Below are positions 25,278 through 28,153 of a stretch of DNA of 64,000 nt, piece after piece (the first letter of the stretch is position 1; each line of letters starts with the position of its first letter). This DNA is from Dehalococcoidia bacterium (lineage in GTDB: Bacteria > Chloroflexota > Dehalococcoidia > DSTF01 > JACRBR01), in NCBI GenBank assembly GCA_015478665.1, contig JADMII010000007.1:62001-126000 (forward strand). Direction: 5' to 3'. The notes under the pieces were generated by a model. It did no database searches, was not told the DNA's origin, and saw only the letters and a list, made by a program, of their open reading frames with translations. A program made the translations under genes and the position numbers.

Positions 25278-27542
25278 TCAGCTGAGGAATCTGCGCAGCA
25301 GCTCGCGCGCGTCGTCGACGGAGCGGATGCGGTAGCGGGCGAGCGACATGCCCCGGCCCACATGGACTGTGGGCGCCTCGTCGGGCAGGGCGGCGAACAG
25401 ATCCTCATCGGTGCGGTCATCCCCCATCGCGAAGACGACGGCATCGTCTTCGACCGTCGCCAGCAGCAGCGGCACCACCATTCCCTTGTGCACGCCCTGC
25501 GGCCGTACCTCGACGACCTTCTGCCCGGCGAGCACCTGCACCGGCGCGTTGCTCAGCATCTCGCCGAGCAGCATCCGCAGCTCCTTCGCCTGGAACTCGC
25601 CGAAGTCGTTCTCGTGCGTGAAGTCTGCCGTCGCCAGACGGTAGTGCCACGCCAGCGACCCTGTCTTCTCTTCGATGAACGTGCCGCGCGTGGTGACGAC
25701 GAAGTGCTCCATGATCGGCCGCACCGCCTCCTTCCACTGCTGCGTCACCGGCCGCAGGATGCGCCAGGGGCTATCAGGCGTGATGCGCGACCAGAGCCCG
25801 TGCTCAGCATGCAGGCCGATCGGCACTCCGCCCAGCCAGCGGTCGAGCGAGGCCCGCGTGCGACCGCTGATCACGTGGACGCGCGTGTCGTCGCGCGCCG
25901 CGAGCGCCTGCAGGAGGTCGAGCAGCTCGGGGTCCGGCGCGGCCTCGTCGGGCGTCGGCGCGAAGGTCACCAGCGTGCCGTCGTAGTCCAGGATCAGCAG
26001 CCGCTCCGGGGCGCGCCGCACCTGCTCGACGACGGCGTCGATCGCGGCCGGCGGCGAGAGCCGTCGCGAGCCGCGGTCTTCCGGCGTCGTCTTGCCGAGC
26101 GCGGCGATGAACGCCTCAGCCCAGCGGTGCACGTCGTGCATCAGCACGCGCGACCGTAGTGCCTCCATGCGCGCGTGGCGTTCGGCCTCCGGCATCGCCA
26201 GCGCCTGGGAGATGCGGTTCGCGAAGCGCTCGACGTCGTAGGGGTTGATATGCAGCGCCTCGCCGAGCTCGGTCGCCGCGCCGGCGAACTCGCTCAGGAT
26301 CAGCACGCCGTCATCGTCCGTCCGCGATGCGACGAACTCCTTCGCGACGAGGTTCATGCCATCGCGCACGGGCGTCACCAGCATCACGTCGGCGGCGCGA
26401 TAGAGCGCGCACACCTCCGCCTGGGAGATCGAGCGGTAGAGGTGATGGATCGGCATCCAGCCGGCCGTCGCGTGGGCGCTGTTGATGCGGCCGACCATCT
26501 CGTCGATGCGGCGTTTGAACTCGGCATACTGCTCGACGTGCTCGCGCGACGGCACCGTCACCTGGATGACGCGCACGCGCTCGCAGAGCTCCGGATGATC
26601 GGTGAAGAGACGGTCGATGGCGAGCAGCCGGCGGGGGATGCCCTTCGTGTAGTCGAGGCGGTCGATGCCGACGATGATCTTGCGATCGCCGGCCTCCTGG
26701 CGCAGGTCGGACACCTGCTTCGTGACATCGTCGCTGTCGCCGCAGCCCGCCCAGCGAGCGGCGTCGACGCCCATCGGGAAGACGCCGACGCGCACCTGGC
26801 GGTCATCCTGCCAGAGGCGGTCGACCTCGACGTCGATGCCCAGCACCCGGCGCAACGACGTCGTGAAGTGCCGCATGTAGCCCGGCGTGTGGAAGCCGAT
26901 GAGGTCGGCGCCCAGCAGTCCTTCCAGGATCTCGGCCCGCCACGGCAGCACGGTGAAGACCTCAGATGATGGGAACGGCACGTGCAGAAAGAAGCCGATG
27001 CGGGCATCGGGCAGGGCGCGGCGGAGCATCGCCGGGACGAGGACGAGATGGTAGTCCTGCACCCAGATCAGGTCGCCGGGGCGATAGTTGTCGATCACCG
27101 CCTGCGCGAACTTCTGGTTGACGCTGCGAAAGACATTCCAGTCGCCGAGGTCGTCCGGCAGCTGGTCGATCAGATAGTGAAACAGCGGCCAGAGGACGCC
27201 GTTCGCCATGTTCTCGTAGTACTCGTTGATCTCATCCTGCGTCAGGTAGACGGGGAGGGCGCGCAGGTTCGCGAGCCGCTCGTCGAGGTCGCGCTTCTGC
27301 CCATCGCTCAGCTGGAGCTCGCCGGGCCAGCCGATCCAGAGGCCGCCGGAGCGCTGGTGTGGACCCCAGAGCCCCGTCGCCAGGCCGCCGCTTGATGGTT
27401 CGGCGACGAAGTGCCCATCGTCGTCGAGCCGCACCGTGATCGGCAGGCGGTTGGCGACGAGGATCAGGCGGCCGATCGGTGGCGGTTCGGAGGAGGCGCC
27501 GGGCTGGGCGGGCGGCTGCGCATCGGGGACGAGCGTGCTCAA
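25278..27542 (-). CDS. otsAB: Fused trehalose-6-phosphate synthase / trehalose-6-phosphate phosphatase
   Basis: A 754-aa bifunctional enzyme making the osmoprotectant trehalose from UDP/ADP-glucose and glucose-6-phosphate. Residues 25-490 are a GT20 OtsA domain: [52 protein letters not shown], and [13 protein letters not shown] with the donor-binding end. Residues 510-750 are a HAD-type OtsB domain: [19 protein letters not shown] (nucleophile Asp), [15 protein letters not shown] and [15 protein letters not shown]. Start TTG 27542 has AAGG upstream. A c-di-AMP-type riboswitch and a short terminator-like hairpin lie in its leader, so second-messenger control of osmolyte synthesis is likely. Confidence 0.95.
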
Positions 27543-27621
27543 ATCGCGGGCCTTCTTTCGCCGTCGCTGCCAGCGTCCGGGGTACGACGGTTCAGCGGGT
27601 CACGAAGGCAACAACATGAAA

Positions 27622-27636
27622 CAGGGTACGACCCTG
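27622..27636 (-). terminator. Terminator-like hairpin in the otsAB leader
   Basis: Minus-strand CAGGGT-CGT-ACCCTG followed by TTTCATGTTGTT, between the riboswitch and the otsAB start. It is a plausible expression platform, though the T-run is short. Confidence 0.45.
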
Positions 27637-27659
27637 CCCGAATCGCGGCGTCGTCCCCT

Positions 27660-27785
27660 CTCACGTGCCTGCGGGGTTAGCTGTCGGGTTCGGTCTGAGA
27701 AGGTTGACCTACTCGCCCTGCGGCGAGATGCACCCCTGTGTCGGTTCCCCCGCTCCGCTCACGCGGATTCGGCCCCATCACATGC
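27660..27785 (-). ncRNA. Cyclic di-AMP riboswitch (ydaO/yuaA class) upstream of otsAB
   Basis: Read on the minus strand, the leader carries the conserved blocks of the ydaO-yuaA aptamer in order: CCGAATCCGCG (27772-27762), a small stem and GGGGGAACC (27751-27743), GGGGTGCATC (27736-27727), a variable hairpin CTCGCC-GCAG-GGCGAG, then CCGAACCCG and CAGCTAACCCCG (27683-27672). A TACACT promoter ends 6 nt before the predicted 5' end. This class binds c-di-AMP and usually switches off osmolyte and cell-wall genes. Confidence 0.85.
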
Positions 27786-27790
27786 CGGGC

Positions 27791-27796
27791 AGTGTA
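27791..27796 (-). promoter_or_regulatory. -10 (TACACT) of the riboswitch-otsAB transcript
   Basis: TACACT on the minus strand places the RNA start near 27785, directly at the aptamer. The -35 is weak. Confidence 0.55.
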
Positions 27797-27973
27797 CCAT
27801 CGCCCAGCCCGCCGGTCGTGCTTGAGTTCACGTGTCGCCCTCGAGATCATCGAGTCGCTATGGTTCCGTCATCTCGCATTGCGCGGCTGTATGCACGGCG
27901 TTTATGCAGCGCTGAACATACTTGCACATCGGCCAGTAGTGCTCGCGCGAAGCGAACGCGGAAGGAGCCCAGG

Positions 27974-28153
27974 ATGCCGGACAAGGCGGAGAACCAGAAG
28001 ACGCGCGGCCGGATGACGCAGGCGAAGGGCAAGGCACGCGAGCTTGGCGCCAAGATTACGGGCGACCGCAAGGCGGAAGCGCGCGGCAAGGCGGAGCAGA
28101 TGAAGGGCAAGGGCCAGGCGGCGATGGGCAAGGCGCGCGACAAGATGCGCTGA
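27974..28153 (+). CDS. CsbD-family small stress protein
   Basis: A 59-aa, highly charged, hydrophilic protein: MPDKAENQKTRGRMTQAKGK then TGDRKAEARGKAEQMKGKG. This is the repeated Lys/Gly/Ala pattern of CsbD-like (YjbJ) general-stress proteins, which are predicted to be intrinsically disordered. AGGAG lies 6 nt before ATG 27974. Its neighbour across the divergent region is the c-di-AMP-controlled trehalose gene, consistent with an osmotic-stress locus. Molecular function is unknown for the family. Confidence 0.8.
   Translation: MPDKAENQKTRGRMTQAKGKARELGAKITGDRKAEARGKAEQMKGKGQAAMGKARDKMR

Follow-up and report, generated by a model that had tools for sequence, protein, structure and literature searches.

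The leader of a fused trehalose-6-phosphate synthase/phosphatase gene, otsAB, in the draft genome of an uncultured Dehalococcoidia bacterium (Chloroflexota) is a genuine riboswitch of the c-di-AMP (ydaO/yuaA, RF00379) class, a familiar type of switch rather than a novel one. Most likely the otsAB mRNA begins with this element, through which c-di-AMP would switch trehalose synthesis OFF. The gene and its leader lie on the minus strand of a stretch of 64,000 nucleotides, here called the window.

Ligand binding, an OFF response and the physiology that follows are all taken by analogy from the studied members of the class. On this view the CdaA of the host would make c-di-AMP, a bacterial signal of salt and turgor, and the aptamer in the otsAB leader would bind it. 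When c-di-AMP is high, in the absence of an osmotic or K+ shortage, folding of the aptamer would favor a terminator lying about 12-32 nt downstream, and with that terminator formed otsAB would not be transcribed. When c-di-AMP falls, for example upon a hyperosmotic shift, polymerase would read through otsAB and trehalose would be made as a compatible solute.

The aptamer and the otsAB leader

When the whole window was scanned with cmscan, the Rfam matches were two tRNAs and one RF00379 aptamer, which scored 94.8 bits (E 4.4e-21). This check had been set beforehand as one that could refute the riboswitch, and the score lies far above the gathering score of 38. The match covers model positions 1-134, the full length, and its alignment to the model has the conserved core and all the consensus helices complete. 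The ordered ydaO/yuaA blocks quoted in the earlier, sequence-only reading of this DNA are all present in the leader, in the expected order. That reading had set the limits of the aptamer at 27660-27796, where it indeed lies, with ends about 10 nt off that took in the -10 element and cut the 3' tail.

Compensatory changes were evaluated in a set of 20 trehalose-linked RF00379 aptamers, with shuffles as the control. The model helices are paired in 96.2% of the cells, a figure falling to about 54% when helix partners are slid by one column. Changes on both sides are seen in 54 cells versus 14.8 in shuffles, with double changes at 11 of the 24 helix pairs, and the covariation score is 0.313 versus 0.144 after shuffling. 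The helices thus belong to a maintained RNA structure and are no chance likeness of sequence. Judging from the studied members of the class, the window aptamer most likely binds c-di-AMP.

Table 1. Features of the otsAB locus in the window
Feature	Position	Strand	Basis
otsAB, fused trehalose-6-phosphate synthase/phosphatase, 754 aa, TTG start	25278..27542	-	Pfam, NCBIfam, PDB
Shine-Dalgarno-like AAGAAGG	27551..27557	-	Sequence; 8 nt before TTG start
Intrinsic-terminator-like hairpin, putative expression platform	27619..27639	-	Terminator scan
Tail segment B (GGGGACGAC), candidate switching strand	27650..27658	-	Folding
c-di-AMP (ydaO/yuaA, RF00379) riboswitch aptamer, complete	27651..27784	-	cmscan and compensatory changes
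Putative extended -10, TGG-TACACT (tentative)	27791..27799	-	Sequence and alignment of relatives
csbD	27974-28153	divergent from otsAB	PF05532, 40.4 bits vs threshold 40

The elements of the leader follow one another in the order TGG-TACACT, aptamer, purine-rich 3' tail, hairpin with T-rich tail, Shine-Dalgarno and TTG start (table 1). The -10 that had been proposed directly before the aptamer is plausible as an extended -10, and in the leader alignment its position is matched by TGGTATACT elements in two relatives and by weaker ones in two others; its assignment is tentative because no full sigma-70 site emerged from a consensus scan. The putative transcription start would lie about 7 nt downstream of it, at the 5' end of the aptamer. 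The purine-rich tail continues as GAGAGGGGACGAC, and its segment B has, in folding, two complementary partners, the aptamer strand ACCCC and the loop plus 3' arm of the terminator. The hairpin, GGGCAGGG-TCG-TACCCTGTTT, is followed by the tail CATGTTGTTG, which is moderately U-rich and forms an imperfect U tract. As the sequence-only reading had anticipated, a short terminator-like hairpin does follow the aptamer, and it is the one such site in 27400-28100 (0.3 expected in shuffles). The two closest relatives have a corresponding 11-bp hairpin and keep both its position and the Shine-Dalgarno; GGAGG stands in two relatives at the position of AAGAAGG in the leader alignment.

The fused OtsA-OtsB expected downstream of the aptamer is borne out by two Pfam domains, PF00982 (GT20, E 1.5e-156) and PF02358 (Trehalose_PPase, E 1.6e-47), and by NCBIfam PRK14501 (NF011071), which matches residues 24-753 with 956.2 bits versus a curated cut-off of 634. 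Its relatives in the PDB comprise OtsA and T6PP enzymes, and the HAD motif LDYDGT is visible beside the GT20 and HAD domains. The product, scoring above the curated equivalog cut-off, is predicted to be a bifunctional synthase and phosphatase. The stress gene csbD is divergently placed, as had been noted. Its role as a component of the otsAB system was considered and rejected, since no csbD adjoins otsAB in the relatives examined and the neighborhood is not conserved.

Does the host have the means to make the ligand? Its draft genome (2.67 Mb, 66 contigs, 98.9% complete), whose nearest named relatives by OtsAB are the Chloroflexota MAGs REEB247 (78%) and WY5.bin150 (80%), has one diadenylate cyclase (DAC domain), identified as CdaA by equivalog (TIGR00159, 225 bits vs a cut-off of 188.8). 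A YbbR/CdaR-like gene adjoins cdaA. The genome also encodes a PgpH-type 7TM-HD protein with the hydrolase domain, while the sole DHH-domain match reads, in our view of its sequence, as RecJ-like. By this gene content the host would make c-di-AMP. The earlier proposal that trehalose synthesis is tied to c-di-AMP is largely supported, by the orthologous aptamers, their covariation, CdaA with its CdaR-like partner and the PgpH-type protein.

The host genome contains three RF00379 aptamers, that of the window and two further ones. The second (L073, G000:C22:21598-21738, minus strand) has a clear terminator and precedes a protein of about 104 aa with two CxxC motifs and a weak PF10080 match, homologues of which come after aptamers in four relatives. 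The third (L074, G000:C49:17843-17985, minus strand) precedes a membrane glycosyltransferase (PF13632), a pairing that recurs in relatives at nine more aptamer loci.

Expression platform and direction of switching

With a terminator taken as a hairpin plus a T-rich run within 110 nt after the aptamer, 58 of 145 Chloroflexota aptamers are followed by a terminator-like hairpin, versus 7.6 in dinucleotide shuffles and 6/141 at a control site 900 nt downstream. The hairpin starts at a median of 11.5 nt past the model end, and that of the window sits at this phylum-typical position. Since it fits the pattern of the phylum, the leader in the window and those of its nearest relatives are likely to work by intrinsic termination. 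Control at the translation start, or by other means than an intrinsic terminator, is unlikely for the window. It would agree with the poor U tract, and with nlpC of C. glutamicum, apparently regulated at the translational level (PMC9960051). Moreover, the same criterion found no terminator in two of the five otsAB leaders of the family, those of G305 and G306, for which a translational or other platform is therefore possible; yet at the offset typical of the phylum a hairpin and its T-rich tail are preserved in the window and in the two relatives nearest to it.

Regarding the direction, an OFF switch is most likely, as in the studied members of the class. The c-di-AMP riboswitch of Bacillus thuringiensis kdp (kdpFABC) is OFF, its transcription being lowered by c-di-AMP (PMC6488665); those of C. 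glutamicum nlpC and B. subtilis ydaO are likewise OFF, as reviewed (PMC9960051), and in Dehalobacter a c-di-AMP riboswitch turns off ablA, an osmolyte-precursor gene (PMC9337991). Equilibrium folding was tried as a proof of switching and discarded as uninformative: the same tail-terminator helix dominates with or without the aptamer imposed, with no ligand-dependent change, and as this downstream helix is identical in both states the switch is not reproduced in silico. Nor do the alternative pairings in the tail settle the direction.

These pairings allow the same riboswitch to be read in the inverted sense, with the Chloroflexota c-di-AMP riboswitches, that of the window included, working as ON switches whose tail toggles between aptamer strand and terminator. 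Unliganded, tail B would pair with the aptamer strand GCUAACCUC and leave the terminator free; c-di-AMP would release the tail, which would then pair with the loop and 3' arm of the terminator, letting transcription pass. In 52 Chloroflexota leaders the tail exceeds shuffled tails in its complementarity to the aptamer strand (p 4e-4) as well as to the loop plus 3' arm of the terminator (p 5e-6), p values that are optimistic because related leaders were treated as independent. Between the window and G302, moreover, CCCC/GGGG corresponds to CCUC/GAGG and ACGAC/GUCGU to GCGAC/GUCGC, paired in each. Against this stands the window leader itself, in which neither the tail-aptamer (p 0.52) nor the tail-terminator pairing (p 0.26) beats shuffles. 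The anti-terminator of the type in the literature (PMC9337991), aptamer strand against terminator 5' arm, is also slightly above shuffles in Chloroflexota leaders (p 0.003-0.005). Furthermore, the tail-terminator pairing is shared by two of five Bacillota copies (L301, p 0.02; L304, p 0.013), which are from plasmids; the studied members there are OFF, so the pairing does not imply an ON switch. For these reasons, namely the Bacillota pairing and the window pairings that do not exceed shuffles, we do not claim the inversion and keep it as a quite improbable rival. Were it true, c-di-AMP would raise trehalose synthesis, with trehalose for example replacing K+ once K+ is high, the reverse of all the studied class members in the literature examined.

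Conservation in the family and recurrence in Chloroflexota

The family set has eight members, five of which possess otsAB: the host (G000), G301, G302, G305 and G306. In all five the aptamer lies directly upstream of otsAB, with OtsAB identities to the window protein of 78-80% in G301 and G302 and of 62-63% in G305 and G306. When the five otsAB leaders are aligned, the aptamer stands out as highly conserved against diverged upstream DNA and a diverged distal leader. No aptamer accompanies the otsAB/otsA loci scanned outside the family, which include some from Myxococcota, Bacteroidota, Spirochaetota and Planctomycetota. A joint horizontal origin of aptamer and otsAB was considered and rejected, since the element is also missing from the otsAB genes that come closest from beyond the family (Polyangiaceae, 49%, and others). 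That the aptamer is a relic, or was placed before otsAB by accident, is scarcely credible: the wider flanks do vary among genomes, csbD among them, but the adjacency is kept at 62% protein identity despite diverged flanking DNA, the helices covary, and the nearest outside genes lack the element.

In G284 and G303, two family members without otsAB, the aptamer leads into a tandem treT-like pair. Members having otsAB own a treT-like pair as well, and a permissive scan found no aptamer before it, though the contigs of G301 and G302 stop at most about 1.2 kb upstream of the pair. G305 and G306 each carry the treT-like pair a few kilobases from the aptamer-led otsAB, on the same contig (L295, L296). 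Another genome, G309, has an aptamer-led otsB-otsA operon alongside an otsAB-like gene (L240, G309:C73:93580-95022) that is 55% identical, contains three in-frame stops and shares its contig with no aptamer.

In a sample of 301 Chloroflexota genomes, RF00379 occurs in 50 and an OtsA-like gene in 130. Downstream DNA was taken for 145 aptamer loci, orthologues included; at 22 of them, in 18 genomes, a same-strand gene of trehalose type comes first or soon after. By our estimate, chance would give well under one such case at about 3000 genes per genome. The targets are fused otsAB (5), otsB-otsA (L070, L259), otsA alone, otsA with treT-like or GlgE-like genes, and treT-like genes. L070 encodes an OtsB that passes its curated cut-off. 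For the treT-like proteins TreT is the best family, yet below the strict equivalog cut-off, and also the best PDB match of the one protein tested. The OtsA-only product is less certain because these relatives score below the curated OtsA cut-off; the specificity of both the treT-like and the OtsA-only enzymes is, by sequence, likely but not certain.

The recurrence of the pairing across the phylum indicates that trehalose genes are a real target of a familiar switch. Since it extends over fused OtsAB, OtsB-OtsA and treT-like routes, the pattern, small as its numbers are, suggests selection on trehalose output and not on one gene.

Other loci of the sample deserve mention. At L066 (G089:C62) the aptamer and otsA are followed by what we read as a GlgE-like glucan maltosyltransferase, with weak TreS/TreC matches. 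The aptamer of L109 (G158:C1:523668-523798, minus strand) precedes a bifunctional inositol-phosphate cytidylyltransferase/di-myo-inositol phosphate synthase, another compatible-solute enzyme, which is below its strict equivalog cut-off. Those of L112, L128 and L107 precede, respectively, a Na+/H+-exchanger-family protein with USP domains, a mechanosensitive channel and an ABC ATPase resembling a betaine transporter subunit. Paired aptamers also occur, divergent and 276 nt apart at G121:C67:26560-27104, and co-oriented with about 0.95 kb between them at G081:C33:37400-38632.

Relation to described systems

The targets of RF00379 described in open papers are K+, osmoprotectant and amino-acid transporters and cell-wall genes (PMC10117811, PMC9960051). 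The window element shares with the class the full-length aptamer, the invariant core, the position in the 5' leader and the terminator-like hairpin that follows, whereas its target, trehalose synthesis, is different. A further close system is the tandem Na+/c-di-AMP riboswitch of Dehalobacter ablA (PMC9337991), which also combines a c-di-AMP riboswitch and terminator before a gene for osmolyte synthesis; there, however, the product leads to beta-lysine instead of trehalose, and the window has a single aptamer, with no Na+ aptamer in the Rfam scan. With kdpFABC of B. thuringiensis (PMC6488665) it has in common the order of aptamer, intrinsic terminator and gene, but that system serves K+ uptake and its control was shown by experiment, while the control proposed here is inferred. 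Compared with other fused OtsAB proteins of NF011071/PRK14501, the window protein equally joins GT20 and T6P phosphatase in one chain above the cut-off; its gene has the aptamer that the scanned relatives outside the family lack.

In the open-text literature we found apparently no paper linking trehalose or otsA to a c-di-AMP riboswitch, without excluding priority elsewhere, and no experimental work on c-di-AMP osmoregulation in Chloroflexota. Trehalose genes are thus apparently an undescribed target of a familiar riboswitch class. Most described targets being transporters and cell-wall enzymes, the present arrangement would place the de novo synthesis of a compatible solute under a c-di-AMP riboswitch. 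What makes it interesting is that in Chloroflexota it recurs across alternative routes to trehalose, and the pairing of aptamer and trehalose genes offers a simple way to test c-di-AMP osmoregulation in this phylum.
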